Shown one piece after another: positions 345 through 13,940 of a stretch of DNA of 13,940 nucleotides. A program made the position numbers and the translations under genes. The stretch comes from Eudoraea sp. Lineage in GTDB: Bacteria > Bacteroidota > Bacteroidia > Flavobacteriales > Flavobacteriaceae. Positions within the stretch are counted from its first letter, which is position 1, and each line of letters opens with the position of its first letter. The notes under the pieces were generated by a model. The model was given only the letters and a program-made list of their open reading frames with translations, was not told the origin of the DNA and ran no database searches. The DNA lies in assembly GCA_013041785.1 (NCBI GenBank), contig JABDRK010000231.1, forward strand, positions 1 through 13,940. The letters run 5' to 3'.

Positions 345-417
345 CAACTATTCCAAAATCAGTAATAGTGGTAGGTTTATCCGTAATTGAGGTAGTAAAA
401 AAGGCATTATAAGCCGG

Positions 418-425
418 TACTTTTG
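418..425 (+). promoter_or_regulatory. Candidate -7 promoter box of the DUF5916 gene
   Basis: TACTTTTG matches the Bacteroidota -7 consensus TAnnTTTG exactly and is followed 25 bases later by the ATG at 451, implying a short leader of about 20 bases. The nearest upstream TTG (387-389) is 28 bases away, longer than the usual spacing, so no good -33 element is seen. The position just before the gene supports the call; the lack of a -33 box weakens it. Confidence 0.4.
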
Positions 426-450
426 TAAGGTGTTAACTATCACTTCTACC

Positions 451-2649
451 ATGAATTTACGTAAGCAGCTTATTTTCCTGTTTGGAATTTTTATATCTGC
501 ATTTTGTACTGCCCAAATCACCCCAAAAAGTGTTACTGCCAGATATATAGATGCACCCATAAATTTGGATGGTGTATTAGATGAAGCTGTTTGGGAAACC
601 GCTGAAGTGGCAGGTGATTTCCGACAATTTTTTCCATCAGATCAGGTGTCTGCAGAATATCCTACCGAAGTAAAAGTACTATTCTCTGATACACATTTAT
701 ATTTAGGTATTTATGCCAAAAAGGCCCCCGGCGATTATGTGGTCTCTACCTTAAAAAGAGACTTTGGGGCGCTGACCAATGACAATATTTCTCTTCTTTT
801 TGACACCTTTAGTGATGGCACCACCGCCTATTTTTTCGGCGTCACTCCCTACGGAGTGCGCCGCGAAGGATTGGTTTCTGAAGGCGGGTCCAATTTCAAC
901 AATACCTGGGATATCAAATGGCAGGCAGAAGCCACCCGGTTTGACGACCATTTTGTGATCGAGATTGCCATTCCGTTTACCTCCCTGAAGTTTGTTGAAG
1001 GAGCCACAAAGTGGCGGTTCAGGCCCTATCGCTGGAACAACCAGTCTAACCAACAGGACACCTGGGTCAAAGTCCCACAGCAACAATTGCTATCAAGCCT
1101 GGCTGATATGGGGGAATTACGTTTTGAGCGCCCCCTGGGAAAATCCCGTACGCCTATTGCGCTGATTCCGTACGTTAACGCCCTGGCTGACAAGGACTAT
1201 GCAAGTGATGTTTCTGAAACCAGCTTCAAAACTGGCGGGGATGCCAAAATCGCCGTGGGAAATGGCATGAACCTGGACCTTACCCTAAACCCGGATTTCT
1301 CCAATGTGGAAGTTGATGATATTTTCACCAACCTAACGCGGTTTGAGGTACGCCTGCCTGAAAAAAGACAATTCTTTATCGACAACAGCGACCTTTTTGA
1401 AAGTTTCGGCAATACTTTTAATGAGGCCAAACCTTTTTTTTCACGGAGGATTGGCTTAGCAAGAAATGCTGAGGGAAATCTAGTTCAAAATGATATTATT
1501 GGCGGTGCCAGACTCAGCGGTAAACTTAATAGCGATTGGCGACTTGGATTTTTAAACTTACAAACAGCCCGGGACGAGGCCAATGAAATAGCCTCCTACA
1601 ACAATATGATGCTAGCCGTTCAGCGTAAAGTGGGCACTCGCTCAAATATCGGTGTGTTCTGGGTGAACCGTCAGGCGGTTGGAGATGAGGACTATCTAAA
1701 CCCTGCTGAAAATTACAATCGGGTTATAGGTGCGGATTACAATCTGGCTTCTTCAGACAATGTGTGGAATGGAAAGCTTTACCTGCACAAATCCTTTCAG
1801 CCTGGTGACAGTGAAGGTAATTTTTCTTCCCAGGCTACGGTTACCTACAATCCGCGCAGGTGGCGAATTATTCAGGATTTGGTCTATATCGACCAGGATT
1901 TCCGAGCCGATCTGGGATTTGTTCCGAGAAGGGATGTATTTAAATGGGGAAATGGGATACAGCGCATATTTTATCCGAAAACCGGAATTTTCAATACCCA
2001 TGGGGTACGATTGCTATCTATAACGTATTGGAGACCCTCATTGGATTACAAGAAAACAGACCATAACTATAGCCTTAATTGGGAAACGGCTTTCAGAAAC
2101 CAGGCCAGTGCAGAAGTTACATTTAGAAATAATTATATCTTCCTTGTCTCCCCTTTTGACCCTACACGTACGAATGGAGCAACCCCATTACCGGGAAACC
2201 AGGGCTATCATTTCAATCAGGTCAGCCTTGAATATCAATCCAACAATACCAAAGTGATCACATATAGTGCCAATGCCACGCTGGGTCGATTTTTTAATGG
2301 AGAAATCACCTCTGTGGGCGGACAATTAGGGTTCCGGGTACAACCCAAAGCGGCTTTCAGTTTGGGCTTTAATTATGACGGAATCCGGTTGCCCGAGCCT
2401 TACGCCGATGCCAACATCTTTTTTGCCACGTTCCGGGCAGACCTTACCTTTAGTAAAAGCCTTTTTTGGAATACCCTGGTTCAATATAGCAACCGTCAGG
2501 AGAATTTAGGCATCAACTCCCGTTTGCAGTGGCGTTTTGCCCCATTATCCGACCTATACCTTGTGTATAACGACAACTATTTTACGGGCACTTTTGGTCC
2601 TCGGTTCCGATCGATAAACTTAAAACTAACCTATTGGTTGAATATTTAA
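451..2649 (+). CDS. DUF5916 protein with N-terminal CBM9/DOMON-like domain, probable outer-membrane barrel
   Basis: Exported 732-residue protein. The ATG at 451 is preferred over an in-frame GTG at 430 because it begins directly with a signal peptide (MNLRKQLIF..., cleavage likely after the Ala of CTAQ, residue 21). Residues about 30-215 resemble a carbohydrate-binding module 9/DOMON-like domain: INLDGVLDEAVW (38-49), FSDTHLYLGIYA (78-89), DNISLLFDTFSDGTTAYFFG (111-130), and the IEIAIPFTSLKF strand. The rest matches DUF5916, including the LPEKRQFFIDNSDLFESFG stretch and an aromatic-rich, alternating C-terminal region typical of an outer-membrane beta-barrel. In other Bacteroidota such proteins are often found near peptidase or polysaccharide genes, but no activity is established, and ligand binding is inference. 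It has its own candidate promoter and is 134 bp from the next gene, so it may be a separate transcription unit from the enzyme cluster. Confidence 0.88.
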   Translation: MNLRKQLIFLFGIFISAFCTAQITPKSVTARYIDAPINLDGVLDEAVWETAEVAGDFRQFFPSDQVSAEYPTEVKVLFSDTHLYLGIYAKKAPGDYVVSTLKRDFGALTNDNISLLFDTFSDGTTAYFFGVTPYGVRREGLVSEGGSNFNNTWDIKWQAEATRFDDHFVIEIAIPFTSLKFVEGATKWRFRPYRWNNQSNQQDTWVKVPQQQLLSSLADMGELRFERPLGKSRTPIALIPYVNALADKDYASDVSETSFKTGGDAKIAVGNGMNLDLTLNPDFSNVEVDDIFTNLTRFEVRLPEKRQFFIDNSDLFESFGNTFNEAKPFFSRRIGLARNAEGNLVQNDIIGGARLSGKLNSDWRLGFLNLQTARDEANEIASYNNMMLAVQRKVGTRSNIGVFWVNRQAVGDEDYLNPAENYNRVIGADYNLASSDNVWNGKLYLHKSFQPGDSEGNFSSQATVTYNPRRWRIIQDLVYIDQDFRADLGFVPRRDVFKWGNGIQRIFYPKTGIFNTHGVRLLSITYWRPSLDYKKTDHNYSLNWETAFRNQASAEVTFRNNYIFLVSPFDPTRTNGATPLPGNQGYHFNQVSLEYQSNNTKVITYSANATLGRFFNGEITSVGGQLGFRVQPKAAFSLGFNYDGIRLPEPYADANIFFATFRADLTFSKSLFWNTLVQYSNRQENLGINSRLQWRFAPLSDLYLVYNDNYFTGTFGPRFRSINLKLTYWLNI

Positions 2650-2783: not shown

Positions 2784-3542
2784 ATGAAAATGAAAATATT
2801 CGACATAATACCGTTAAAATCAATTGTTATTGTATCGCTTGCCTTTGTGTTTCTTGGAATCCCAGGCGAAGCAAAAGCTCAATCAACCAATGGTGTAACC
2901 TTGCATTTGGACAATAAGCAGCAGTCTATGGTGACCATTGCATCACTGACCGCAAAAGGAGATCTGGGGAATTTGGAAACTGCTTTGAATGGAGGTCTGG
3001 ATGCCGGTTTGACCATAAATGAGATCAAAGAGGTAATGGTGCATCTGTATGCCTATTGCGGATTTCCGCGCAGCCTGCGTGGTTTACGCACTTTTATCAA
3101 AGTATTGGACGAACGCAAGGCAAAGGGAATTGAAGATAATCCAGGTGCGGAAGCCTCGCCTATTGTAGACACACGGCCCAAATACGACAGGGGAAAAGAA
3201 AATTTAGAAACATTGGTGCAAAGGAAATTAGATGGCCCAAAAGCCGATTATGCTCAATTTGCCCCTGTTATAGAAGTCTTTCTAAAGGAACATTTGTTTG
3301 CCGATATTTTTGAACGTGATGTTTTGAACTATCAGCAAAGGGAACTGGTCACGGTTTCGGTGCTGACAACTATTGGAGATGTAGAACCTATGCTGCGTTC
3401 GCACATGAACATCTGTTTGATACAGGGATTCACCCCGGGGCAATTAGAAAAATTGCTGCAGGTATTGGAAAAAAACGTGGACGAGTCGAAAATCAAATCG
3501 GCCAGAGAAGTTTTAAATGAATTAATACAATCTAAAGACTAG
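2784..3542 (+). CDS. Exported carboxymuconolactone decarboxylase (CMD) family protein
   Basis: 252-residue protein with two CMD-like helical repeats. A signal peptide (hydrophobic stretch about residues 13-27, ending GEAKAQS, cleavage likely after Ala32) directs it out of the cytoplasm. Repeat one covers about residues 45-112 and carries the family motif HLYAYCGFPRSLRG (87-100) with Cys92. Repeat two (about 175-248) carries RELVTVSVLTTIGD and RSHMNICLIQGFT with His207 and Cys211. Neither repeat has the CxxC redox pair of AhpD, so a peroxidase role is not supported. The superfamily includes gamma-carboxymuconolactone decarboxylase, but most exported members have no proven substrate. It is the first gene of the tightly spaced cluster, seven bases before the hydrolase gene. 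A second in-frame ATG at 2790 is an equally possible start. Confidence 0.88.
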   Translation: MKMKIFDIIPLKSIVIVSLAFVFLGIPGEAKAQSTNGVTLHLDNKQQSMVTIASLTAKGDLGNLETALNGGLDAGLTINEIKEVMVHLYAYCGFPRSLRGLRTFIKVLDERKAKGIEDNPGAEASPIVDTRPKYDRGKENLETLVQRKLDGPKADYAQFAPVIEVFLKEHLFADIFERDVLNYQQRELVTVSVLTTIGDVEPMLRSHMNICLIQGFTPGQLEKLLQVLEKNVDESKIKSAREVLNELIQSKD

Positions 3543-3549
3543 TGCAGAA

Positions 3550-4608
3550 ATGAAAAAACTTAGCGTTGCAATTTTTATAAGCATGTTAGTAATACATTGT
3601 ACAACCGAGGCGCAACTCAAGGAAAATCCCTTTACCCTGGTGTATCAAGGGGCTATAACGGAGAATACGAAAGGAAAGGTAAACATCCATCCCGTAACCT
3701 ATAAATTGCATGGGATTGAAATCGCAGCTAATGTCTACACCCCCCCAAATTACGATCCGAAAGTATCACATGCTGCAGTAGTAGTCGCCCATCCCAATGG
3801 CGGGGTAAAAGAACAGGTGGCTGGTTTGTATGCACAGCGATTGGCGGAAAAAGGTTACATTACTATTGCGGCAGATGCGGCTTATCAGGGGGCAAGTGGT
3901 GGCACCCCAAGAAATGTCGATAAACCAGCCAACCGTATTGAGGATATTCACGGCATGGCTGATTTTATATCGCAATATCCAGGCGTCAATATTGCAAAAC
4001 TCGGCCTGCTTGGAGTTTGCGGAGGAGGTGGATACGCCTTAAAAGCGGCCCAATCCGATAAACGATTTAAAGCCATTGCAACTTTAAGCATGTTCAATTC
4101 GGGCGTGGTCCGGCGCAATGGATTTATGAACTCACAGGTGAATACGATACAGGAACGACTAAGACAAGCTTCAATAGCAAGGGCTCAAGAAGCATCAGGA
4201 GGTGAGGTGCTTTATACCGCAAATACAGAGATTACGGATGAAATGGCGGACAAGATGCCCTTCGACCTCTACAGGGAAGGCCACTATTATTACCACAGAA
4301 CCCATACCCATCCCAATTCCACATTCCGCTACACCACAAGCAGTTTATTGGATTTAATGACATTTGATGCGGCTACTAATATGGATTTAATCGACCAGCC
4401 CTTGTTGATGATGGCGGGAAGTAAGGCAGATACCAAATATATGACGGATGAAGCCTTCGCGAAAGCCGCTAATGCCAAAAGCAAGGAATTTTTCCTTATC
4501 GAAGGTGCCACACATATAGAAACTTACTGGAAGCCTGAATACGTACAACAAGCAGTGAACAAACTAGTGGACTTCTACCAAAACAACCTTTTAACTTCGA
4601 ACCCATGA
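3550..4608 (+). CDS. Exported alpha/beta hydrolase with Cys nucleophile (dienelactone hydrolase/YcjY-like)
   Basis: 352-residue hydrolase. The N-terminus MKKLSVAIFISMLVIHCTTEAQ is a signal peptide. Cleavage at A21/Q22 is likely; Cys17 preceded by VIH is a poor lipobox. The strand and loop VVVAHPNGG (77-85) would form the oxyanion region. GVCGGGG (155-161) is the nucleophile elbow with Cys157 in place of serine, as in dienelactone hydrolases and the YcjY-like group. Asp294 (in GSKAD) and His322 (in GATHIETYW) complete a plausible triad. The AAYQGASGG stretch (110-118) is also typical of this group. Residues about 200-262 form a lid-like insertion rich in His and Tyr (GHYYYHRTHTHP). The substrate is unknown; an ester or lactone is inferred from the fold. 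It overlaps the following cupin gene by four bases (ATGA), suggesting coupled translation. Confidence 0.88.
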   Translation: MKKLSVAIFISMLVIHCTTEAQLKENPFTLVYQGAITENTKGKVNIHPVTYKLHGIEIAANVYTPPNYDPKVSHAAVVVAHPNGGVKEQVAGLYAQRLAEKGYITIAADAAYQGASGGTPRNVDKPANRIEDIHGMADFISQYPGVNIAKLGLLGVCGGGGYALKAAQSDKRFKAIATLSMFNSGVVRRNGFMNSQVNTIQERLRQASIARAQEASGGEVLYTANTEITDEMADKMPFDLYREGHYYYHRTHTHPNSTFRYTTSSLLDLMTFDAATNMDLIDQPLLMMAGSKADTKYMTDEAFAKAANAKSKEFFLIEGATHIETYWKPEYVQQAVNKLVDFYQNNLLTSNP

Positions 4609-5090
4609 GCAGCAAAACTCTTTTAGCGATTACCCTGATCGGAACACTTATATTTTCCTGTAAACCATCGGAGGAGAAAAATCTAGCGGTCAATTCAACT
4701 AAACAACAGGAATTGATTTTCTCGAAAGGGCAAAAAATAACAAACAACAATTTTGTCGGCAATGCATGGGTGGAAATGTTGGTACTTGCGGATAGTGTTA
4801 ACCGAAATTCCGTAGGCAGTGTTACGTTCGAACCTGGGGCAAGAACCAACTGGCATTTGCATCCCAACGGGCAGATTATTTTATCATTGGATGGGGTGGG
4901 ATATTATCAGGAGAAAGGAAGCGAGAAGAAAATATTGCGTAAGGGAGATGTGGTAAAATGCCCGGCAAACACCCCGCATTGGCATGGGGCAAGTCCCGAT
5001 ACCAAATTTATTCAGGTTGCCATCACCAGCAGAGTAGACGGCCCTACGGAATGGTTCGAAGCTGTTACTGACGAGGAATATATGAAGTAG
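4605..5090 (+). CDS. Cupin-domain lipoprotein, hydroxynitrile-lyase-like metal site
   Basis: 161-residue single-domain cupin with a lipoprotein signal: LIFSC places the lipidated Cys at residue 19, followed by KPSEE, an acidic stretch like the surface-export signals of Flavobacteriia. Cupin motif 1 is GARTNWHLHPNGQIILSLDG (78-97), with ligands His84, His86 and Gln90 instead of the usual Glu. Motif 2 is GDVVKCPANTPHWHGA (114-129) with His125. From memory, a His-His-Gln-His site is that of the manganese cupin hydroxynitrile lyase of Granulicella tundricola, and the flanking pattern (VTFEPGART, HWHGA, EWFEAVTDEEY) also resembles that group. The actual reaction is not shown: this cupin group is often found beside CMD proteins and most members are uncharacterised. 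Its start overlaps the stop of the hydrolase gene. Confidence 0.9.
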   Translation: MSSKTLLAITLIGTLIFSCKPSEEKNLAVNSTKQQELIFSKGQKITNNNFVGNAWVEMLVLADSVNRNSVGSVTFEPGARTNWHLHPNGQIILSLDGVGYYQEKGSEKKILRKGDVVKCPANTPHWHGASPDTKFIQVAITSRVDGPTEWFEAVTDEEYMK

Positions 5091-5119
5091 GTTCCATCAA
5101 ACACTTAAAAATATTGGAT

Positions 5120-6187
5120 ATGAAACTCTTAAAAGCAAAATTATTTTTATCGGTCGGCATCTCGATGGTAATGACTTTAGGCATATTTTCCCAAAAGAAA
5201 CCTATTATCATACAGGACCAGGGCAGTTTTGCAGTAGGTGGCAGCGTGATAGAAAACCCGGGGACCTTTGACGCCATTAAGCGAGGACCGGAAGGCCAGA
5301 CCTTTCATGGCGACCATGCCTATGTCTTTTATCAGATTCCAGTTGATGCTCGTAAATACCCTTTGGTCATGTGGCACGGATTCGGCCAGTTTTCGAAGAC
5401 CTGGGAAACGACACCCGACGGGCGTGAAGGGTACCAGAATATTTTCTTGCGCCGTGGTTTCAGTACCTATATCATGGACCAGCCCAGAAGGGGAAGGGCG
5501 GGAAGAAGTATGGTGGAAGCCACGATTACCCCAACGCCCGACGAGCAGTTCTGGTTCAATATCTTTCGTATAGGGGTATGGCCTGATTATTTCCCTGGGG
5601 TACAATTTGCCAGAGACGAGGAAACCCTGAACCAGTATTTTCGGCAAATCACACCGAATATCGGGGGCTTTGATACCGAAGTTATTACCGATGCGGCATC
5701 AAAACTGTTTGATAAAATCGGAGCGGGAATCCTGGTCACCCACTCCCATTCCGGGGGATTTGGTTGGGCTACTGCCATTAAAAACGATAAGATTAAGGCC
5801 ATTGTCTCCTACGAACCAGGCTCCGGTTTCCCCTTTCCGGATGGAGAAGTGCCGGAACCGATTGATAGTTCAGCAGGCGCCCTCGAGGCGGTAGGAGTCT
5901 CCAAAGCAAACTTTTTAAAGCTGACCCAAATTCCGATAATCATTTATTATGGGGACTTCATCCCTGTAAAATATGACCCCAATCCGGGTGTTGATGGCTG
6001 GCGGGTACGTATGGAAATGGCAAGAAAATGGCGCGATGTAGTGAACAAGTATGGTGGCGATGTGACAGTAGTACACTTACCTGAAATAGGAATAAACGGT
6101 AATACCCATTTTCCGTTTTCCGACCTGAATAACCTGGAGATTGCCGACCTGATGTCAAAATGGCTAGAGGAAAAGCAATTGGACTAA
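5120..6187 (+). CDS. Exported alpha/beta hydrolase, esterase-713-like
   Basis: 355-residue protein. The ATG at 5120 is chosen over an in-frame TTG at 5114. A signal peptide covers about residues 1-24 (LSVGISMVMTLGIFSQ). The layout follows the esterase 713 family of Alcaligenes as I recall it: GSFAVGG (35-41), a HGxxxxxxxWETTPDGR block (86-102), FLRRGFSTYIMDQPRRGRAG (109-128), the nucleophile region THSHSGG (207-213), IVSYEPG with Glu232, and PEIGINGNTHFPFSDLNNLE (321-340) with His330. The nucleophile is Ser209 or Ser211; Ser209 fits the family's serine-to-glutamate spacing better. Glu rather than Asp as the acid is a feature of this family. The natural substrate of esterase 713 itself is not known. 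It sits 29 bases after the cupin gene and 12 before the ABM-domain gene. Confidence 0.87.
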   Translation: MKLLKAKLFLSVGISMVMTLGIFSQKKPIIIQDQGSFAVGGSVIENPGTFDAIKRGPEGQTFHGDHAYVFYQIPVDARKYPLVMWHGFGQFSKTWETTPDGREGYQNIFLRRGFSTYIMDQPRRGRAGRSMVEATITPTPDEQFWFNIFRIGVWPDYFPGVQFARDEETLNQYFRQITPNIGGFDTEVITDAASKLFDKIGAGILVTHSHSGGFGWATAIKNDKIKAIVSYEPGSGFPFPDGEVPEPIDSSAGALEAVGVSKANFLKLTQIPIIIYYGDFIPVKYDPNPGVDGWRVRMEMARKWRDVVNKYGGDVTVVHLPEIGINGNTHFPFSDLNNLEIADLMSKWLEEKQLD

Positions 6188-6199
6188 TTCAAAAACAAA

Positions 6200-6628
6200 A
6201 TGAGACTTCAAAAATTAGGGCTCCTTTTAATATTGATGGCCATGTGGACAAGTTCCTCAGGTCAAGAATCTGAATCAGGTAAAGACGATTTGGAGTCCGG
6301 TGAAATGATGGTGCGGATTGCTGAAATTGAAATTGAACCAAATTACCACAATGAATACCTGGCCATTCTAAAAGAAGAAGCTGCAGCATCGGTGCGGTTG
6401 GAGCCGGGAGTGATTTGCATTTTACCTATGTATCAAAAAGAGCATCCGACCGAAATCAGGCTTTTGGAAATTTATGCCAGTAAAGAAGCATACGAATCAC
6501 ATCTGCAGACACCGCATTTTATACATTATAAAAAGACAACCCTGCATATGATCAAGTCTTTAAAATTGATCGATATGGAGGTCGTAGATGTGGAAATAAT
6601 GCCTATGATTTTTAGAAAACTAAATTGA
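6200..6628 (+). CDS. Exported antibiotic biosynthesis monooxygenase (ABM) domain protein
   Basis: 142 residues: a signal peptide (MRLQKLGLLLILMAMWTSSSG, cleavage about 21/22), a short acidic linker, then one ABM ferredoxin-like domain at about 37-112. Landmarks are MVRIAEIEIEPN (37-48), the helix EYLAILKEEAAASVRLEPG (52-70), and LLEIYASKEAYESHLQTPHF (88-107), the usual 'E-Y-x-x-x-x-A-Y-x-x-H-x-x-x-x-H-F' pattern with His101 and His106. Members act as cofactor-independent quinol monooxygenases, as haem-degrading enzymes or as small dimeric modifying proteins. This one has no residues that decide between them. The export signal is unusual, since characterised YgiN-like enzymes are cytoplasmic. 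It is in the middle of the cluster and presumably co-transcribed. Confidence 0.86.
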   Translation: MRLQKLGLLLILMAMWTSSSGQESESGKDDLESGEMMVRIAEIEIEPNYHNEYLAILKEEAAASVRLEPGVICILPMYQKEHPTEIRLLEIYASKEAYESHLQTPHFIHYKKTTLHMIKSLKLIDMEVVDVEIMPMIFRKLN

Positions 6629-6656
6629 AAACTGAATTATAATCTTAAATAAGCAA

Positions 6657-7109
6657 ATGAGAACATTACTGATCGGAGTCTTTTTATTCGCAATAAGCGC
6701 AATATCCTTTGCTCAAGACGCGGCCATAGAACAGGAGATTAAAGAACTCTCCAAAGCCAAATGGGAATGGATGGCCGACAAGGATGTAGAAAAGCTTGCT
6801 TCGCTTTTTCACGACAAATCCAAGTTTGTACACATGAGTGGCTCCTGGAAAAAGGACAGGGAGCTGGAAATCATAAAAACGGGAAGCATTTGGTATAAAA
6901 ATGCCGATGTACACGATGTTGCCGTCGAGGTTTTTGGCGACGACACAACCGTACTGTGGAATCGCATTACGCTAACGGCACATGTGCGTGGAAATGATGT
7001 GTCTAACGAATTCACGGTAACCGAGTTCTATAAAAAAGAAGGGGGAGACTGGAAATTGCTGGACCTCACCTTTAGCAGCGTTCGGGATACCCATAAAATT
7101 GAACATTAA
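6657..7109 (+). CDS. Exported NTF2-like (DUF4440) protein, first of a tandem pair
   Basis: 150 residues with a signal peptide (MRTLLIGVFLFAISAISFAQ, cleavage after Ala19). The mature part is a single SnoaL/NTF2-like cone fold: helix EIKELSKAKWEWMADKD, then LASLFHDKSKFVHMSG (47-62), KKDRELEIIKTG, TVLWNRITL, and a closing DWKLLDLTFS strand. The FHDxxxFVHM pattern is common in Bacteroidota DUF4440 proteins. The fold can house an isomerase, dehydratase or hydrolase active site or simply bind a ligand; no function can be assigned. It is about 60% identical by eye to the next gene, 21 bases downstream, which indicates a tandem duplication. Confidence 0.85.
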   Translation: MRTLLIGVFLFAISAISFAQDAAIEQEIKELSKAKWEWMADKDVEKLASLFHDKSKFVHMSGSWKKDRELEIIKTGSIWYKNADVHDVAVEVFGDDTTVLWNRITLTAHVRGNDVSNEFTVTEFYKKEGGDWKLLDLTFSSVRDTHKIEH

Positions 7110-7130
7110 GATAACATTAGAACACTTGAA

Positions 7131-7583
7131 ATGATAAAAATAAAAACAACAATTATTGGACTTTTTTTAGTCTTTATCACTGGTCAGGTAGCCCTGGCAC
7201 AATCCCCGGACATTAAGCAGGAAATCAAGGAGCTCTCCGAACAAAAGTGGCAATGGATGGCGGATAAAAATGCCGATAGTCTGGCTATACTTTTCCACGA
7301 CAAGGCCAAGTTTGTGCATATGGGCGGCACCTGGGGCAAAGACCGGGAGGTGGACATCATAAGAAGCGGTCGCATCCATTACAAGAAAGCCGATATCCAC
7401 GAAGTCATGGTAGAAATGCTGAACGAGGGCACCGTCATTCTTTGGAACCGAATAACCTTGCTGGCCGTAGTGGGCAGTAACGAAGTGACCAACCCTTTTA
7501 TGGTGACCGAAGTATATGTCAAAGAGAACAACGATTGGAAATTGGCCGATTTGACTTTTAGCAAGCTTCTCATCAGAGAGTAA
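7131..7583 (+). CDS. Exported NTF2-like (DUF4440) protein, second of a tandem pair
   Basis: 150 residues with a signal peptide ending QVALAQ (cleavage after Ala23). It aligns end to end with the preceding protein without a sizeable gap; about 73 of 118 residues match in my count by eye. Shared blocks are QEIKELS, WMADK, LFHDKxKFVHM, KDRE, LWNRITL and DLTFS. Differences are concentrated around residues 92-100 and 108-116, where the paralogue has DDTTV and RGNDVSNEF. This pattern suggests a kept fold with changed pocket edges, or a heterodimer. Function is unknown. The next gene starts 37 bases downstream. Confidence 0.85.
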   Translation: MIKIKTTIIGLFLVFITGQVALAQSPDIKQEIKELSEQKWQWMADKNADSLAILFHDKAKFVHMGGTWGKDREVDIIRSGRIHYKKADIHEVMVEMLNEGTVILWNRITLLAVVGSNEVTNPFMVTEVYVKENNDWKLADLTFSKLLIRE

Positions 7584-7620
7584 TACTAAGGTGGATTGTC
7601 AAACAAATTGTAGTGTTAAA

Positions 7621-9255
7621 ATGAAAAAAATGAGAAAAGGTATTTTGGGATTGGTTTTGATCTTAAGCGCATCGATAACTGCACAAGAAATTGTTGACAA
7701 CGCTACAAAAGTAAAAACCGAATTGGGTGTTATTCGTGGCGTAAATGAAGGTGATGTTGATAGTTTTAAGGGAATTCCTTATGCTGCTCCCCCGGTAGGA
7801 GCGTTTCGCTGGCGTCCCCCACAACCCCTGACCCCCTGGGAGGGTGAACTGGATGCAAGTGAGTTCGGTTCAAATTGTGCCCAGTCCGGTTGGGGCGCAG
7901 CCCCGGGAACCATTAGCGAAGGCTCGTCAGAAGATTGCCTTTACCTCAATTTGTGGAAACCCGCAGGAACCGAGGCAAAAAATTTACCGGTTATGGTATG
8001 GATACACGGTGGCGCCTTCGTTGGCGGTAGCGGTTCAGGTCCCGGTACGTTTGGGGACAAATTTGCCAAACAAGGCATTATTTTGGTCACTTTGAATTAC
8101 CGCTTAGGTCGGCTGGGCCATTTTGCGTTCCCTGCTTTAAGCCGGGAATACCCTGAAGAACCCAAGGGCAGTTATGCCTATATGGACCAGATTGCGGCTT
8201 TGGATTGGATTCAGCAACATATAGGAGCCTTTGGTGGCGACGAGAACAATGTGACTATTTTCGGATTTTCTGCGGGTGGCGTATCGGTTCATTCACTTAT
8301 GACTATTCCGGATGCGAAAGGCCTTTTCCACAAGGCCATTAGTCAATCCGGCGGAGGCCGGGATGGTGTGCTTACCGCAAGGCCCATACGTGAAGAAAAC
8401 GCCGATCCTTTTTACGCAGTTTCCGCAGAAACTATAGGAATAAATTTTGCCCGTAAACACGGTATCGAAGGTACCGATGCAACAGCCCTCGCTAAGCTTC
8501 GGGCCCTTAGCGTGGAGGAAATTGTAGATGGAGGCCAGGAATCTGATGGTCAGGGAGGCCCGCGCATCTATTCAGGACCGATTCTGGATGGCAAATTGGT
8601 GGTGGAAACCGCCGAGAGTGCATACAAGGCGGGCAGACAGGCAAAGATCCCTCTTATCATAGGGTCTAATAGCGCTGAAATAGGCGGAGGCTTTGTCAAT
8701 AGTAGCAATTCAAAGGAAGAACTATTTTCTCTGTTTGGAGAACTTGGAGCAGCAGCCAAAGCTGCCTATGACCCTGATGGCACTAAAGATTTCGCCGAGG
8801 TAATCACGAAGTTCAATACGGACTGGGTTTGGGCCGAACCTGGACGATTTGCTGCCAGCGCAATGGCTGCTCAGGGTGAACCGGCCTATATCTACCATTT
8901 TGATTTCGTTCCTGCCCCAATGAAAGGGCGCATGCCCTATGGTGCCGGTCACGGCTCCGAAGTCGGTTATGTATTCAACAACCTAGATGCACGTTGGGGT
9001 AATCCTGAAACAACTCCTGAGGACATAAAAGTTGCTGAAATGATGAATGGGTTTTGGGCCAACTTTGCCAAGACAGGTAATCCCAATGGGGAGGGGCTGC
9101 CAAATTGGCCCGTGTACACTCTCAAAAAGGGTGAAATTCTTGACATCCAGCCCGATGGTAAGCCGATTGGGAAAAAAGATCCCAGACAAGCGAGACTGGA
9201 TGTGATCGAAAAAGCTTTTAAATTGAGAAGTCAGTTACAATCCCGTGGTATTTAA
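7621..9255 (+). CDS. Exported type-B carboxylesterase (para-nitrobenzyl esterase family)
   Basis: 544 residues from the ATG at 7621, preferred over an in-frame GTG at 7591 because it starts a signal peptide (MKKMRKGILGLVLILSASITAQ, cleavage after Ala21). All family landmarks are present: GIPYAAPPVG (51-60), SEDCLYLNLW (103-112), the oxyanion loop WIHGGAFVGGSG (127-138), and LNYRLGRLGHFAFP. The nucleophile elbow is GFSAGG with Ser217, the acid is Glu353 in SNSAEIGG, and the base is His444 in GAGHGSE. Length is normal for the family. It should hydrolyse carboxylic esters in the periplasm or outside the cell; the substrate is not predictable. It is the third and largest hydrolase of the cluster and uses a standard Ser-Glu-His triad, unlike the other two. 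Confidence 0.93.
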   Translation: MKKMRKGILGLVLILSASITAQEIVDNATKVKTELGVIRGVNEGDVDSFKGIPYAAPPVGAFRWRPPQPLTPWEGELDASEFGSNCAQSGWGAAPGTISEGSSEDCLYLNLWKPAGTEAKNLPVMVWIHGGAFVGGSGSGPGTFGDKFAKQGIILVTLNYRLGRLGHFAFPALSREYPEEPKGSYAYMDQIAALDWIQQHIGAFGGDENNVTIFGFSAGGVSVHSLMTIPDAKGLFHKAISQSGGGRDGVLTARPIREENADPFYAVSAETIGINFARKHGIEGTDATALAKLRALSVEEIVDGGQESDGQGGPRIYSGPILDGKLVVETAESAYKAGRQAKIPLIIGSNSAEIGGGFVNSSNSKEELFSLFGELGAAAKAAYDPDGTKDFAEVITKFNTDWVWAEPGRFAASAMAAQGEPAYIYHFDFVPAPMKGRMPYGAGHGSEVGYVFNNLDARWGNPETTPEDIKVAEMMNGFWANFAKTGNPNGEGLPNWPVYTLKKGEILDIQPDGKPIGKKDPRQARLDVIEKAFKLRSQLQSRGI

Positions 9256-9281
9256 CCAAGGATTACGAATTGTAAAGTGCT

Positions 9282-9893
9282 ATGCATAAAATTGTTATTC
9301 TATTGTTGCTTTTTTCTTCTGGCTTGCAGAGGCATTCAGCACAAGCGCTGGAGGATTTGGATGATAGGATTTTAATTGTTTATCTCTCCCGTACCAACAA
9401 CACCAAAGCAGTTGCCGAAATCATCCAGAAACAGGTGGGCGGGGATTTGGTGGCTTTGGAGTTGGAAGATCCCTACCCTGAAGACTATAGTGCTATTGTA
9501 AAACAAGTAGCCAAAGAAAATGAAACCGGGTTCTTGCCTCCACTGAAAACCCGTGTCGATTTAGAAAAGTACGATATCATATTCCTGGGGTTTCCGACCT
9601 GGGGTATGCGGCTGCCACCACCACTGAAAAGTTTTTTAAACGGTAATGATCTGTCGGGTAAAACACTGATTCCATTTAATACGCATGGGGGTTATGGTGT
9701 GGGGAGTTGTTTCCGGACCATTAAAGAGTTATGTCCAGAAAGTGAGATTCTCAAAGGCTTTTCAATACGCGGTGGCAGTGAACGGGATGGTATACATCTG
9801 GCTATTCAGGGAAATAGAATAAAGGTGGTGGCAAAAGAAGTTGATAAATGGTTGACTGAGCTCGCTGTGTTACACCCTAAAAATAAAAAATGA
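9282..9893 (+). CDS. Exported flavodoxin-family protein
   Basis: 203 residues. Residues 1-22 form a signal peptide (KIVILLLLFSSGL core, HSAQA cleavage region). The flavodoxin domain follows: RILIVYLSRTNNT (29-41) with the FMN-phosphate loop Ser36-Arg-Thr-Asn-Asn-Thr41, then FLGFPTWGMRLPPPLKSFL (101-119), a flavin-ring-contacting loop, and FNTHGGYGVGS (132-142). This is the short-chain 'flavodoxin_4' type, which carries electrons or has quinone or small-molecule reductase activity. It is unusual for a flavodoxin to have an N-terminal export signal, because FMN is loaded in the cytoplasm. In this cluster it could pass electrons to or from an exported redox enzyme, which is inference. A 90-bp gap separates it from the 2Fe-2S subunit gene. 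Confidence 0.86.
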   Translation: MHKIVILLLLFSSGLQRHSAQALEDLDDRILIVYLSRTNNTKAVAEIIQKQVGGDLVALELEDPYPEDYSAIVKQVAKENETGFLPPLKTRVDLEKYDIIFLGFPTWGMRLPPPLKSFLNGNDLSGKTLIPFNTHGGYGVGSCFRTIKELCPESEILKGFSIRGGSERDGIHLAIQGNRIKVVAKEVDKWLTELAVLHPKNKK

Positions 9894-9983
9894 AACTTTA
9901 ACACAAAGTGAGTCAACAAGGCTTCAATTTGTAGCATATAAGCAGCTAAAAATCAGTATATTCAAAGAACTTATTTTTAAATC

Positions 9984-10439
9984 ATGGCAAAAATTAACTT
10001 AAACATTAACGGGACAACACGGGAAGTGGATGTTGACCCCAATACACCCTTGCTTTGGGTGTTGCGAGATCATCTGAATTTATTCGGTACAAAATACGGC
10101 TGTGGTATTGCCCAATGTGGCAGTTGCACCGTTCATTTAGACGGCGTGGCCGTTAGGGCGTGTATGGTAACCACAGCTATGGTGGGCAATCAGGAAGTAA
10201 CCACCATTGAAGGGCTTTCGGAAAACGGAGACCACCCGGTTCAAAAGGCCTGGCTGGAATTGGATGTACCCCAATGCGGGTATTGTCAAACCGGCCAAAT
10301 TATGTCTGCAGTTGCCCTCTTGGAAAAAAATCCGGAACCATCGGATGCGGAAATTGAAATGGCTATGAACGGCAATATCTGCCGTTGCGGAACCTATGTA
10401 AGGATCAAGAAGGCCATCAAGCTGGCTGCCAATTCATAA
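9984..10439 (+). CDS. iorA: 2Fe-2S subunit of a molybdenum hydroxylase (isoquinoline 1-oxidoreductase alpha type)
   Basis: 151 residues, the standard length. The N-terminal plant-ferredoxin-type domain holds Cys40, Cys45, Cys48 and Cys60 ([11 protein letters not shown]...RAC). The C-terminal helical domain holds Cys98, Cys101, Cys133 and Cys135 ([11 protein letters not shown]...NICRCGTY). Together they bind two 2Fe-2S clusters that carry electrons away from the molybdopterin of the large subunit. There is no signal peptide; export together with the Tat-signalled partner encoded 23 bases downstream is expected from related systems. The gene symbol names the family; isoquinoline is not necessarily the substrate. 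The 90 bp upstream hold only a weak promoter-like TCAATTTG (9924-9931), so the gene may be read from the upstream operon or start its own unit. Confidence 0.94.
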
Positions 10440-10462
10440 TTCATCCACCTAATTCAGGAATA

Positions 10463-12724
10463 ATGACACTTATAAAAACACAAATCGGAAGACGTGCCTT
10501 CATAAAAAACACAAGTCTTGCCAGTGGCGGACTCGTTCTTGGTTTCAGCATTTTCAATTCCTGCAGGCCAAAGGATATGGAAACAATGGCTATCCGGGAA
10601 ATGCCCAAGGAATGGTTTGAGATCAATGCCTATTTGAAGATTGGCGATAATGGGCTGGTAACCATCATGTCTCCCAATCCGGAATTCGGCCAGGGAGTAA
10701 TCACCTCCATGCCCATGATTGTAGCCGATGAACTGGATGTTGCCTGGAAGGATGTGCTCGTTGAGCAGGCCAATCTGGATGCAGAGGAATACGGCTGGCA
10801 ATTCACCGGCGGAAGCCAGGGGATTCGACGCCGTTGGCAGGGACTTAGAATGGCCGGGGCTACAGCAAAACAAATGTTGAAAGAAGCCGCGGCAGAATCC
10901 TGGCAGGTGCCTGTCTCGGAAATTTCGGCATCAGAAGGGGTCCTAAGTCATAAAGGCAGCGGAAATTCAGCTGGATATGGTGAAATGGCTTCATTGGCTG
11001 CCCAAAGGGAAGTACCAGAGGAAGTGCCTCTGAAAGAAATCAAGGATTTTACCATTATAGGAACTTCCAAAAAGGATGTGGAAGCCCTGAAAGTTGTTAC
11101 CGGCAAACCATTATTTGGAGTTGATTATCAGTTTGAGGGTGCCTTGGTTGCCATGGCTAAACACCCTCCTGCATTTGGGCTGAAACTAAAGTCCTTTGAC
11201 GATAGCAGGGTAAGGAATATGCCGGGAATTGTGGATGTTTTCAAAATAAAAACCCTTGAAGACGACGCCACCCGGGGATATTTTGACACCACTGCCTTTA
11301 CTGAATTGGTGGTAATCGTTGGGAAAACCACCTGGGAGGTCATGAATGCGAAAAAGCAGTTAAGCGTGGATTGGGAACCCATTGCTGATTCCAAATTGAC
11401 CCTGGACCGCTTTGGCACACAAATGGAAGTTGAGGTACCGAAAGGCCTCGAAAATACGAATGACCATTACGCTCAGATGATTAAAATGGCAGCTGAACCT
11501 GGTACCGTTGCCCGAAAAGATGGAGATCCGGCAGCCGCCTTTAAAAATGCGGCCAGGGTCATCGAAAGGTCCTACAGCTGTCCGTTCCTGGCGCACAACT
11601 GCATGGAACCCATGAACTTTTTTGCCCACGTTACCGATGAGGTAGTAAAATTGGCCGGACCGCTACAGGCCCCTGCTTTGGCCGAAGCCACAGTGGCCGC
11701 CCGCCTGGGCGTTCCTGTTGAAAAAATAGAGGTAGAACTTACGCGAATGGGCGGTGGATTTGGAAGAAGGGCCTATGGACATTACGCTGTTGAAGCAGCC
11801 CTGATTTCAAAACAGGTTAAAGCCCCGGTGAAATTGGTCTACGACCGTGAAGACGATATGACCTTTGGTATTTATCGACCATCTTATCACGCGACCTATC
11901 GTGCAGCACTGGATGAAAACAACAATTTGATTGCATTCCATGTAAAAGCCGGTGGAGTGCCAGAAACACCTTTATTTGCCAATCGTTTTCCTGCCGGAGC
12001 GGTGGATAATTACCTGGCAGAACAATGGGAAATCAATTCAAACATAACCATAGGGGCCTTCCGTGCGCCGCGCTCAAATTTTATGGCGGGTGTTGAACAA
12101 GCCTTTCTGGATGAAGTTGCTGAAGCGGCCGGGAAAGATCCGATTGAATTTAGGCTAGAGCTACTGAACCGGGCAAAGGAAAAGCCGGTTGGGGAACGAA
12201 ATGATTACGACCCTGAACGCTACGCAGGCGTATTAAAACTGGTCCGTGATAAATCAAACTGGAATGAATCGGCTCCTGGATCTTACCGTGGAGTATCGGC
12301 TTATTTATGCCACAACAGCTATGCCGCCCATGTGCTGGATGTTGTTTTGGAAGGTGATACACCTAAGGTGGAAAAAGTGGTCTGTGCTATTGATTGCGGT
12401 ATTGTGGTAAATCCCGATGCTGCTGCAAATATGGCCGAAGGGGCCATAGTTGACGGTATAGGCAACGCCATGTATGGTAACCTTTCCTTTAAGGACGGCA
12501 GGCCGGAACAATCCAATTTTGACCGGTACAGGATCATTCGGCACAGTGAAGCGCCTAAAGAAATTAAGGTACATTTTGTCAATAACGAAATTGACCCAAC
12601 CGGTTTGGGAGAACCCCCGTTCCCGCCGGTAATGGGGGCATTGGCCAATGCGCTTTACAAGGCAACGGGGAGAAGGGTTTACCATCAACCCTTTATTTCC
12701 GACCGGCCTCCTTTAGTGGGATAA
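10463..12724 (+). CDS. iorB: Molybdopterin-binding large subunit of a molybdenum hydroxylase (IorB type), first copy
   Basis: 753 residues from the ATG at 10463. A longer in-frame opening from 10385 would overlap the iorA gene and bury the Tat signal. The Tat signal is GRRAFIK (9-15) plus a hydrophobic stretch to residue 31. FNSC puts a Cys at 34, so a lipidated Tat substrate is possible. Landmarks of the aldehyde oxidase/xanthine dehydrogenase family, single-chain IorB type, follow: PNPEFGQGVIT (71-81), GGSQGIRRRWQGLRMAG (116-132), GGGFGRRAYGHYAVEAALIS (430-449), APRSNFMAGVEQAFLDE (535-551), CGIVVNPDAAANMAEGAI (645-662), and GLGEPP with the conserved catalytic Glu717. It would hydroxylate an aldehyde or N-heterocycle using water, with electrons leaving through IorA. 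No cytochrome c domain is attached, so the final electron acceptor is unknown. Confidence 0.93.
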   Translation: MTLIKTQIGRRAFIKNTSLASGGLVLGFSIFNSCRPKDMETMAIREMPKEWFEINAYLKIGDNGLVTIMSPNPEFGQGVITSMPMIVADELDVAWKDVLVEQANLDAEEYGWQFTGGSQGIRRRWQGLRMAGATAKQMLKEAAAESWQVPVSEISASEGVLSHKGSGNSAGYGEMASLAAQREVPEEVPLKEIKDFTIIGTSKKDVEALKVVTGKPLFGVDYQFEGALVAMAKHPPAFGLKLKSFDDSRVRNMPGIVDVFKIKTLEDDATRGYFDTTAFTELVVIVGKTTWEVMNAKKQLSVDWEPIADSKLTLDRFGTQMEVEVPKGLENTNDHYAQMIKMAAEPGTVARKDGDPAAAFKNAARVIERSYSCPFLAHNCMEPMNFFAHVTDEVVKLAGPLQAPALAEATVAARLGVPVEKIEVELTRMGGGFGRRAYGHYAVEAALISKQVKAPVKLVYDREDDMTFGIYRPSYHATYRAALDENNNLIAFHVKAGGVPETPLFANRFPAGAVDNYLAEQWEINSNITIGAFRAPRSNFMAGVEQAFLDEVAEAAGKDPIEFRLELLNRAKEKPVGERNDYDPERYAGVLKLVRDKSNWNESAPGSYRGVSAYLCHNSYAAHVLDVVLEGDTPKVEKVVCAIDCGIVVNPDAAANMAEGAIVDGIGNAMYGNLSFKDGRPEQSNFDRYRIIRHSEAPKEIKVHFVNNEIDPTGLGEPPFPPVMGALANALYKATGRRVYHQPFISDRPPLVG

Positions 12725-12786
12725 ATGGAGCAATTATACCCTGAAGCGGCCCAGCATATTGGTCGCTAAAACATATTGGAAAGAAA
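12725..12786. other. Gap between the two iorB-type genes with a small hairpin and a direct repeat
   Basis: AGCGGCC (12745-12751) pairs with GGTCGCT (12761-12767), seven pairs including one G-T wobble, with a nine-base loop. CATATTGG occurs twice, at 12755-12762 and 12772-12779. No T-run follows, so termination is doubtful. The structure may adjust expression of the second large subunit or stabilise the upstream part of the message. It is short enough to be chance. Confidence 0.3.
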
Positions 12787-13940
12787 ATGACCGTGATTAA
12801 AACCAAAGTCGGGAGACGCGCTTTTATAAAGAATGCCAGTTTGGCTGGCAGTGGCCTTGTTTTGGGTTTTAGCTGGCTGAATTCCTGTAAACCCGAAGAG
12901 GCCGGAAAAATGGTCGCCCGGGAAATGCCAAAAGAATGGTTTGAAATCAATGGTTATTTGAAAATCGGAGAAAATGGGTTAGTGACTATCATGTCTCCCA
13001 ATCCCGAAGGAGGCCAGAATGTTAAGACTTCCATGCCCATGATTGTCGCCGATGAACTGGATGTAGATTGGGCAGCCGTTCTTGTAGAACAAGCACCTTT
13101 GAACACCGAATTGTACAGCCGACAGTTTATTGGGGGTAGCCAGGCAATTCGACGTGGCTGGGCAGGCTTGCGGATGGCAGGGGCCTCCGCCCGCCAAATG
13201 CTTCGGGAAGCTGCAGCCGGGGAATGGGAAGTTCCCGTCGCAGAAGTAACCACAGAAATGGGTATGCTGCATCATAAATCCAGCGGACGTTCCCTTACCT
13301 ATGGGGAAGTAGCCGCTGCCGCTTCCCAGCTTGCTGTTCCTGAAGAAGTGCAGCTGAAGGAGGTGGAGGATTTTGATATCATTGGGACTTCACGTAAAAA
13401 TGTAGAGGGAGAAAATATGGTGACCGGCAAGTCCTTGTTTGGATCAGACATACACCAGGAAGGCATGCTGATTGCCATGATCGTCCACCCTCCGGCTTTT
13501 GGTAAAAAACTAAAGTCATTTGATGATTCGGGGATCAGATCAATGCCAGGAATAAAGGATGTATTTAGTATCAAGGTACTGGAAGATGACTTTGAAAGAC
13601 AGCATTTTGACACCTGCACCTTTCTTGAAGTTGTAGTCATTGTGGGGGATTCTACCTGGGAGGTCATGAATGCCAAAAAAGCAATAGCCGTTGAATGGGA
13701 ACCTTTTGGAACCTACACAGAACAAAAAAGATTTTATGGAAGGCCAAGTGCCCAGACCATTACTATCCCGGCCGGTTTAGAGAATACAAAAGATCACAGG
13801 GCTGAGATGGCTGAGATGGCATCTATGCAGCCCAGCGTGGTTCGTAAGGATGGTAACCCGGGGGATGCCTTTAAAAAAGCCGCTAAAGTAATCGAACGGA
13901 CGTATACCGCTCCTTTCCTTGCCCACAATTGTATGGAGCC
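12787..13940 (+). CDS. iorB: Molybdopterin-binding large subunit of a molybdenum hydroxylase (IorB type), second copy, cut by window edge
   Basis: The frame is open from the ATG at 12787 to the edge, giving 384 codons, about half of the 753 in the first copy. It starts MTVIKTKVGRRAFIKNASLA, a Tat signal, followed by LNSC with Cys34, a better lipobox than in copy one. Identity to the first copy is about three quarters over the first 100 residues by eye and lower afterwards. GGSQAIRRGWAGLRMAGA aligns to the GGSQGIRRRWQGLRMAG block, and FLAHNCMEP is shared at the edge. The most divergent part is around residues 309-330. The molybdopterin-contacting GGGFGRR block and the catalytic Glu are beyond the edge, so catalytic competence cannot be judged here. 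No second iorA lies between the copies, so both would rely on the same 2Fe-2S subunit, unless another lies downstream. Confidence 0.93.
   Translation, partial: MTVIKTKVGRRAFIKNASLAGSGLVLGFSWLNSCKPEEAGKMVAREMPKEWFEINGYLKIGENGLVTIMSPNPEGGQNVKTSMPMIVADELDVDWAAVLVEQAPLNTELYSRQFIGGSQAIRRGWAGLRMAGASARQMLREAAAGEWEVPVAEVTTEMGMLHHKSSGRSLTYGEVAAAASQLAVPEEVQLKEVEDFDIIGTSRKNVEGENMVTGKSLFGSDIHQEGMLIAMIVHPPAFGKKLKSFDDSGIRSMPGIKDVFSIKVLEDDFERQHFDTCTFLEVVVIVGDSTWEVMNAKKAIAVEWEPFGTYTEQKRFYGRPSAQTITIPAGLENTKDHRAEMAEMASMQPSVVRKDGNPGDAFKKAAKVIERTYTAPFLAHNCME

Follow-up and report, generated by a model that had tools for sequence, protein, structure and literature searches.

A predicted AraC-activated operon of mostly exported enzymes in Eudoraea sp. 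and its operator

The window analysed here is the entire contig G000:C186 of Eudoraea sp. (13,940 bases). Profile searches and the list of open reading frames (ORFs) place 12 same-strand ORFs at 2784–13940, preceded by a DUF5916 gene and a divergent regulator gene, in the following order.

1..291, minus strand: AraC-family regulator, truncated by the contig start so that its N-terminal 97 aa remain
359..394, plus strand: predicted operator, 36 bp, two direct half-sites TCAGTAATAGTGGTA / TCCGTAATTGAGGTA, 21 bp apart
418..425, plus strand: predicted −7 promoter box TACTTTTG (TAnnTTTG), Bacteroidota-type, 23 bp past the operator
430..2649, plus strand: DUF5916 protein (PF19313), signal peptide; opens the operon immediately past operator and promoter
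2784..3542, plus strand: exported two-domain CMD-family protein (PF02627), with signal
3550..4608, plus strand: lipoprotein-type alpha/beta hydrolase, DLH/YcjY type (PF12146/PF01738/PF02129; PDB YcjY 5xb6)
4605..5090, plus strand: lipoprotein-type cupin with (R)-mandelonitrile-lyase-like metal site (PF07883; PDB 2f4p, 4bif)
5114..6187, plus strand: exported esterase, SulE/esterase-713 type (PDB 4q34, 8goy (SulE), 1qlw)
6200..6628, plus strand: exported ABM-domain protein (PF03992)
6657..7109, plus strand: exported NTF2-like protein a (DUF4440, PF14534), NTF2 fold, model pLDDT 88.9
7131..7583, plus strand: exported NTF2-like protein b (DUF4440, PF14534), 56% identity to a
7591..9255, plus strand: exported carboxylesterase B (PF00135), best PDB match fumonisin B1 esterase 8s6d
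9282..9893, plus strand: exported flavodoxin (PF12682)
9984..10439, plus strand: 2Fe-2S small subunit of Mo-hydroxylase (PF00111/PF01799), without its own signal
10463..12724, plus strand: Mo-hydroxylase large subunit 1 (PF02738/PF20256), Tat signal (GRRAFIK)
12787..13940, plus strand: Mo-hydroxylase large subunit 2, truncated at the contig end, with a Tat signal

The 11 intergenic gaps among the 12 genes range from −4 to 90 bases, eight of them being 7–28 bases, in line with the mostly short spacing described by an earlier, sequence-only reading. That reading counted eleven consecutive genes from 2784; the same-strand run holds, and the count rises to 12, the last gene being cut by the contig end. 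Its start of the unit at 2784 proved too late, because the operator and promoter sit before the DUF5916 gene, and the unit thus starts at 430. Since the window is the whole contig and ends there, the second Mo-hydroxylase large subunit is incomplete. The families that the sequence-only reading named, including three hydrolases, CMD, cupin, ABM, NTF2-like, flavodoxin, and Mo-hydroxylase, were recovered by Pfam and PDB matches. The true start of the DUF5916 protein is likely the ATG at 451, and we infer that this protein is of the outer-membrane type; the SulE-type esterase probably starts at the ATG at 5120.

The three hydrolases retain their putative catalytic residues in aligned relatives, with length and identity limits applied to all residue-conservation alignments. 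In the DLH-type hydrolase, the Cys nucleophile C157 and H322 are present in 41 of 41 relatives, a dienelactone-hydrolase-like (DLH) feature, and PF01738 matches at 31.6 bits against a cut-off of 21. In the SulE-type esterase, S211, E234, and H332 occur in all 57 relatives and correspond to the catalytic residues S209, E232, and H333 of SulE (PMC10356948), forming the Ser-Glu-His triad of the SulE/esterase-713 type; the phmmer match to 8goy reaches 5.6e-57. Carboxylesterase B carries S227, E363, and H454 in 20 of 20 relatives. Two of these hydrolases have solved relatives that act on xenobiotics or toxins, namely the fumonisin B1 esterase and SulE (PMC10356948), an enzyme that de-esterifies sulfonylurea herbicides. 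Most members of the set are distant from characterised enzymes.

Among the small-ligand proteins, the CMD protein possesses E83 in 24 of 24 and H87 in 23 of 24 aligned relatives. Assignment as the 4-carboxymuconolactone decarboxylase PcaC was rejected, the protein scoring 57.9 bits against the NCBIfam TIGR02425 cut-off of 155.7, and an AhpD-like or ECF41-linked CMD type was ruled out by the lack of a conserved CxxC or Cys pair in the 24 aligned CMDs. In the cupin, H84, H86, and Q90 (32/32 relatives) and H125 (31/32) follow the pattern His-x-His-x3-Gln...His, which constitutes the metal ligands of (R)-hydroxynitrile lyase cupins. The cupin matches PDB 4bif at 3.3e-23 and NCBIfam NF049940 at 129.6 bits, just under the cut-off of 140. 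A fold search with the NTF2-like model gave generic NTF2-fold matches only and indicated no function.

The redox branch is formed by the flavodoxin and the Mo-hydroxylase. Eight Cys of the 2Fe-2S subunit are conserved in 23 of 23 relatives and the Glu of GLGEPP in the large subunit in 26 of 26, together with GGGFG; the two four-Cys 2Fe-2S sets and the large-subunit catalytic Glu are features of Mo aldehyde dehydrogenase and IorAB. The best PDB match of large subunit 1, over its full length, is 8gy3_C, an aldehyde dehydrogenase large subunit, and large subunit 2 is 64% identical to it over 382 aa. Contig C364 of the same genome ends with a C-terminal piece of a Mo-hydroxylase large-subunit gene, which may belong to the same gene as large subunit 2. 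The profile search found no cytochrome c domain among the proteins of the window, itself cut at the contig end. Recycling outside the cytoplasm is not known for the cofactors required by the flavodoxin and, in relatives, by the aldo/keto reductase (AKR). These cofactors, and the AKRs and SDRs without export signal added in some relatives, count against the best reading given below.

Eleven of the 12 genes from 2784 carry a predicted export signal (nine Sec or lipoprotein, two Tat), the 2Fe-2S subunit being the one negative; the scan was a home-made heuristic, not SignalP, and is permissive, scoring 111 of 301 control ORFs positive. At this control rate, and with the genes treated as independent, the binomial p is ~1.4e-4, and the longest run of positives in 20 control stretches is 7. 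Family-by-family conservation of export in relatives is stronger evidence than the binomial within the window. In the AraC loci, with matches below 30% identity excluded, the positives amount to 26/27 for CMD, 18/19 for DLH, 24/26 for the cupin, 29/36 for the SulE-type esterase (7/36 negative), 45/48 for NTF2, 18/18 for COesterase, 12/12 for ABM, and 12/13 for flavodoxin. The compact cluster of exported enzymes, originally credited with ten signals (eight Sec or lipoprotein, two Tat), is confirmed in a stronger form than first stated.

The AraC fragment, divergent from the operon, shares 96% identity with an AraC of 303 aa at locus L016 that contains HTH_18/HTH_AraC. In the gap between araC and the operon, two direct half-sites TCNGTAAnnnnGGTA are placed 21 bp apart and form a predicted operator that is a new finding here and scores 45.5 with a position weight matrix (PWM). 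Of 46 araC/operon gaps, 44 served as the training set for this matrix, and these training gaps score at least 12.7; plain base shuffles of the gaps (920) reach a maximum of 3.4, and no site scoring at least 10 occurs in the 20 control stretches (398 kb). The two gaps that do not fit belong to L030, with degenerate half-sites only and no PWM match of at least 10, and to L094, where the called gap is too short and a site of 34.2 lies in the stretch. An AraC-anchored search fetched 30 loci, 28 of them with an AraC at least 52% identical; a site scoring at least 26 is present in 26 of these 28, whereas L177 and L179 have no site, and eight of the 26 lie outside the training set and score 34.2–47.6. 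As a search pattern, the bare 14-letter core was rejected as non-discriminating: in 199 genomes it matched 42 times, and the reversed control pattern 38 times. Among 30 loci fetched from that search, 20 score at least 34 with the full matrix and adjoin araC or set genes, and the other ten score −9.2 to 23.3 with no such genes beside them. Since scores up to ~23 occur away from the set, only higher scores carry weight. The exact −7 box is located within 80 bp in 23 of 43 gaps, at +23 from the operator in 22 of the 23, and is absent from the called gap in 20 of 43. These 20 gaps, the two gaps that the operator does not fit, and L177 and L179 count against the model. With its direct-repeat operator at a fixed distance from the −7 box, the arrangement resembles a class-II-like AraC-activated operon. 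A redox switch in AraC finds no support, as the 44 aligned AraC proteins contain no invariant cysteine pair, only C177 (41/44).

In Bacteroidota, the enzyme genes repeatedly co-occur, with their order shuffled; they do so likewise in Proteobacteria and Planctomycetota, where the regulator is LysR or another AraC. Twelve CMD-anchored loci contain araC in 11, NTF2 in 10, cupin in 9, SulE-type esterase in 8, iorA in 8, and flavodoxin in 7, and the 20 random control stretches (398 kb) contain none of the window's enzymes and one DUF5916. Independent scattering of the genes in relatives, which the sequence-only reading had named as refuting it, is not the general picture: the neighbourhood comparison that had been proposed shows a set recurring in Bacteroidota and beyond, variable in composition and order. 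In a same-genus genome (L016), a Tat-signal AKR follows the carboxylesterase, replacing the flavodoxin and Mo-hydroxylase of the window. AKRs occur in many loci, four genomes add a PQQ/cytochrome-c dehydrogenase, and some operator-bearing loci consist of a single gene. Neither Mo-hydroxylase nor flavodoxin is labelled in the Bacteroidales loci L029–L031, L033, L034, L037, and L038; the lack of the redox branch in several Bacteroidales loci counts against the best reading given below. Several counts leave out L079, which is the L016 stretch, and L093 and L019 overlap in the same genome.

Shared operator and promoter spacing, a recurring gene set with enzymes absent from the 20 controls, and conserved export together point to a co-regulated exported enzyme set. 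This part of the dedicated extracytoplasmic pathway suggested by the sequence-only reading stands; the single pathway is not supported. Composition and order vary and single-gene loci exist, and the whole looks like a modular toolkit. The best reading would be a modular AraC-activated envelope toolkit for ester and lactone hydrolysis, followed by oxidation or reduction of the products, and detoxification seems more likely than one fixed growth pathway. The operator, the −7 box, the export signals, the intact catalytic residues, and the cross-phylum modular kit are read directly from sequence. For the window, we consider it somewhat more probable than not that one AraC-activated operon starts at 430, runs at least as far as the contig end, and serves to break down foreign esters or lactones outside the cytoplasm, most likely as detoxification. 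The AraC protein would sense a small molecule from outside and, bound as predicted to the two direct half-sites, recruit RNA polymerase. The envelope would then fill with the three ester- or lactone-cleaving hydrolases, the small-ligand proteins (CMD, cupin, ABM, and NTF2-like), and the redox branch. The Tat-exported Mo-hydroxylase would carry the 2Fe-2S subunit along and oxidise aldehydes or N-heterocycles, delivering electrons to the respiratory chain, and foreign esters, lactones, and reactive products would be broken down before entering the cytoplasm.

A possible, tentatively held extension is a novel extracytoplasmic metabolic regulon distinguished by an AraC subfamily and an operator of its own. 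Even cofactor-dependent redox enzymes of usually cytoplasmic kind, namely flavodoxin, an NAD(P)H-type AKR with a Tat signal, and the Mo-hydroxylase, would then act outside, and the exported reductase would perhaps keep its nucleotide permanently bound and recycle it by ping-pong dismutation. Glucose-fructose oxidoreductase utilizes such a permanently bound nucleotide and ping-pong dismutation. Consistent with the earlier remark that no described pathway of this composition is known, searches of open-licence PMC papers, judged by title and start of abstract, gave none describing the gene set, and the available excerpts of PMC10434189 and PMC3426412 do not concern it.

A dedicated catabolic growth pathway for one natural-compound class, such as phenolic or algal esters, would combine cleavage outside, PQQ/Mo oxidation, and uptake of the acids. 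It agrees with the presence, in some loci, of ester hydrolases alongside PQQ dehydrogenase and an enzyme of the Mo-aldehyde-dehydrogenase type, with DUF5916 as the first gene, and with a group of hydrolases of BD-FAE type (feruloyl-esterase-like) that L093/L095 contain (the scanned member being that of L093). However, the 14 window proteins scanned include no transporter or ring-cleavage family, the clusters of relatives show DUF418 membrane genes in two loci and MFS genes in two (10 of 19 in-cluster neighbour gene groups scanned), and minimal loci hold one enzyme only; we regard this pathway as rather unlikely. CMD, flavodoxin, AKR, SDR, and ABM families often participate in oxidant or electrophile responses, and this family match, with AKRs in many loci, would suit a stress regulon of the envelope that counters oxidants or reactive electrophiles such as quinones, aldehydes, and hypochlorite and in which the hydrolases are secondary. 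A role in oxidative stress has been proposed for CMD genes beside ECF41 sigma factors (PMC3426412), but the CxxC invoked there is not conserved in the 24 CMDs. Such a regulon also leaves the conserved ester hydrolases unexplained and finds no invariant cysteine pair in AraC, making it distinctly improbable. ABM, SnoaL/NTF2, cupin, and CMD folds occur in natural-product clusters, yet no synthase, ligase, or carrier protein exists among the 14 window proteins or the ten scanned neighbour groups, and exported tailoring of a secreted natural product is very unlikely. A chance collection, conceivable in view of the commonness of heuristic export positives, has a negligible probability, being ruled out by the control stretches and contradicted by the recurrent co-occurrence and the shared operator and promoter spacing.

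If the toolkit reading is correct, bacteria of several phyla carry out switchable extracytoplasmic chemistry on small molecules, and the export signals on proteins with normally cytoplasmic folds would thereby be explained. The operator and −7 box would provide a regulatory handle for finding and inducing such sets; the operator could serve as a reporter, and an inducer so found would name the substrate class. Furthermore, the set would supply exported esterases with kinship to enzymes that degrade herbicides and mycotoxins.

Polysaccharide utilisation loci are likewise operons of Bacteroidota in which exported hydrolases are encoded together with a dedicated regulator; in contrast, the window proteins include no SusC/SusD or glycoside hydrolase match. 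The periplasmic oxidations of acetic acid bacteria and of Acinetobacter (quinate/chlorogenate) carry out successive reactions outside the cytoplasm and pass PQQ/Mo electrons to the respiratory chain. Several extracytoplasmic steps would be shared with them, whereas the enzyme families (CMD, cupin, ABM, NTF2, and flavodoxin), regulator, and organism group of the window differ. Mo aldehyde dehydrogenase (8gy3) and isoquinoline 1-oxidoreductase resemble the window in the eight-Cys 2Fe-2S subunit, the Tat signal, and the conserved Glu; the window differs in having two large subunits with one small, distant sequences, and, up to the contig end that cuts it, no cytochrome c domain. SulE, esterase 713, and BDI_1566 (4Q34) share the triad positions and a predicted signal peptide with the window esterase, which here belongs, with two further hydrolases, to a large AraC-linked operon, an arrangement not described for SulE in the available excerpt of PMC10356948. 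ECF41 sigma factors with COE (CMD/oxidoreductase/epimerase) likewise associate CMD-type enzymes with one dedicated regulator and its own promoter signature across phyla, according to the available excerpt of PMC3426412; in the window, the CMD lacks the CxxC, the adjoining regulator is AraC instead of an ECF41 sigma factor, and it is linked to a dozen mostly exported genes.

The window is one whole contig (13,940 bases) of a fragmented genome. A divergent AraC gene, cut by the contig start, precedes the listed genes, all of which lie on the + strand from position 430 to the contig end. The operon families, in order, are DUF5916, a two-domain CMD protein, a DLH/YcjY-type hydrolase, a cupin, a SulE/esterase-713-type hydrolase, an ABM protein, two DUF4440/NTF2-like proteins, carboxylesterase B, a flavodoxin, a 2Fe-2S subunit, and two Mo-hydroxylase large subunits. 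The same-strand cluster of the sequence-only reading is thus present, and its count of eleven genes becomes 12 (13 with DUF5916). The contig end truncates the second large subunit (12787-13940). Elsewhere in this genome, contig C364 has at its end the start of a C-terminal fragment of a gene of this kind (L092, 13477-14550), possibly the missing part. A convergent ORF follows this fragment; hence, the operon may end there.

Sequence comparison reveals a common regulator with a shared operator and promoter geometry. The 46 araC/operon gaps contain a common 36-bp element, roughly TCNGTAAnAnTGGTAnnnnnnTCNGTAATnnGnGTA, with two direct half-sites 21 bp apart. Matrix scores among these gaps, 44 of which formed the training set, reach at least 12.7 in 44, at least 20 in 43, and at least 26 in 41. 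The maximum in 920 shuffled gaps is 3.4, and no site of 10 or more occurs in 20 control stretches (19.9 kb each, taken from five set-bearing genomes). A search anchored on the AraC protein gave a match in 63 of 199 Flavobacteriaceae genomes, and 30 loci were fetched. Where the AraC is at least 52% identical (28 loci), a site of at least 26 is found in 26 and is absent in two (L177 and L179); no operator stands at the expected place for the two more distant AraCs. Eight of the fetched loci outside the training set (L160, L165, L168-L172, and L182) score 34.2-47.6. Furthermore, 43 gaps were examined for a TAnnTTTG box, the Bacteroidota -7 element. Of the 23 with a box inside the called gap, 22 have it starting exactly 23 bp past the operator; in the other 20 no box is present there, some called gaps being too short. 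At the AraC-anchored loci, which partly overlap with these, the box stands at 23 in 17/30. In the window, the two elements are:

359-394, + strand, predicted operator (matrix match)
418-425, + strand, predicted -7 box (TAnnTTTG)

These positions place the expected transcription start near 430 and make ATG 451 the likely first codon of DUF5916.

Additional operators are located within the clusters of L080, L087, L091, and L093. Some operator-bearing loci contain DUF5916 only (L187), a Tat-signal aldo/keto reductase (AKR) only (L192), or iorAB with a cupin and an exported-looking uncharacterised protein (L188). Such loci speak for a modular regulon. L189 has three operators (8758, 12379, and 17601) within 9 kb, with a different subset of the set behind each, and two AraC genes. 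Several genomes also have, close to this operator, a member of a protein family that looks exported, is about 258 aa long, and has a DDFRGTASIT-like motif (L188, 17512-18294; L193, 1341-2117; L088, 16791-17570); the L088 member has no Pfam match.

The set recurs in relatives, so that the neighbourhood conservation sought for the sequence-only reading is found as clustering, with an order that is shuffled and fixed only in some loci. The window order CMD-DLH-cupin-esterase-ABM-NTF2a-NTF2b-COesterase is retained in L015 and L016, and esterase-DLH-NTF2-COesterase-CMD-cupin occurs in several Bacteroidales loci. CMD and cupin form a single ORF in 22 loci (such as L034, L045, L058, L084, and L090); open frames are also shared by CMD and ABM in L025 and by esterase and NTF2-like protein in L086 and L087. 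An esterase search of the genome collection gave 64 loci in Bacteroidota, Proteobacteria, Planctomycetota, Gemmatimonadota, and others; the divergent regulator is the window-type AraC in many Bacteroidota loci and LysR or another AraC in Proteobacteria and Planctomycetota. Among the 199 Flavobacteriaceae genomes, CMD (E ≤ 1e-40) is found in 12, esterase in 9, DLH-type hydrolase in 6, and NTF2-like protein in 20; the Mo-hydroxylase large subunit, present in 99, is common and not set-specific. The twelve CMD-bearing genomes include 6/6 with the DLH-type hydrolase and 8/9 with the esterase. Around CMD (12 stretches, 10 genomes) lie araC in 11, NTF2 in 10, cupin in 9, esterase and iorA in 8 each, flavodoxin and AKR in 7 each, DLH in 5, ABM in 4, and COesterase in 2. 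For 40 stretches anchored on the esterase and no shorter than 19 kb, the counts are lower bounds, the ORF-based labels having recovered the esterase itself in only 35: DLH and cupin at least 26 each, CMD 19, NTF2 18, COesterase 12, iorA 7, and flavodoxin 6. The control stretches contain none of the window's enzymes and one DUF5916; weaker matches add a single AKR (32% identity) and two SDRs.

Predicted export of nearly all genes, put at ten of eleven by the sequence-only reading, holds with altered figures: 11/12 are positive in a heuristic scan, a permissive one that also accepts 111 of 301 control ORFs. The longest run of positives in the control stretches is 7, and the binomial value for 11/12 is 1.4e-4 with genes treated as independent. 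More telling is the family-by-family conservation of the predicted signals in AraC-linked loci: CMD 26/27, DLH 18/19, cupin 24/26, esterase 29/36, NTF2 45/48, carboxylesterase 18/18, ABM 12/12, and flavodoxin 12/13. The 2Fe-2S subunit and araC, by comparison, give 1/17 and 1/49. Large-subunit-1-type genes are positive in 19/27 in AraC loci, and an RRx[FILM] motif lies near the start in 32/34 overall.

The active sites are intact in the alignments. The esterase residues S211, E234, and H332 are conserved in 57/57 relatives and correspond to S209, E232, and H333 of SulE (PMC10356948); the nearest solved structures are 4q34 and SulE. The DLH-type hydrolase retains C157 and H322 in 41/41, the nucleophile being cysteine. 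Also conserved are H84, H86, and Q90 (32/32) and H125 (31/32) in the cupin, E83 (24/24) and H87 (23/24) in CMD, S227, E363, and H454 in the carboxylesterase (20/20), eight cysteines in the 2Fe-2S subunit (23/23), and the catalytic Glu and GGGFG in the Mo-hydroxylase large subunit (26/26). No conserved CxxC exists in the 24 aligned CMD proteins. The nearest solved structures are fumonisin B1 esterase for carboxylesterase B and an aldehyde dehydrogenase large subunit for the Mo-hydroxylase.

Other loci contain extra members, among which the predicted exported state is not universal. AKRs occur in 35 stretches (one a duplicate), with a twin-arginine signal in 13 loci (L015, L016, L045, L047, L048, L054, L064, L069, L080, L082, L087, L093, and L095) and in a further AKR of L192. 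A fourteenth motif match, in L067, is no signal; other AKRs lack an export signal, and the SDRs are negative in the heuristic scan. An extracytoplasmic location is unexpected for NAD(P)H enzymes such as the twin-arginine AKRs. Four genomes (L019/L093, L021, L024, and L081; two Pfam-scanned) encode PQQ dehydrogenases that include a cytochrome c domain, and L081 also has an SMP-30-like protein and a GSDH/cytochrome c protein.

Mechanistically, a small molecule from outside would activate AraC, esters or lactones would be cleaved outside the cytoplasm, and the products would be oxidised or reduced, with electrons passing to the respiratory chain. The main purpose would be detoxification, which we favour, not decisively, over a fixed growth pathway because no uptake or ring-cleavage genes were found within the window, the tail is modular, and single-gene loci exist.

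Every individual family of the set is already known, and literature searches of open-licence PMC papers found none describing this gene set. The nearest described idea is the ECF41-CMD unit (PMC3426412), which differs in its regulator, its size, and the CxxC that the window-type CMD lacks. On these grounds, we read the set as a putative AraC-linked degradation or detoxification operon moved outside the cytoplasm.
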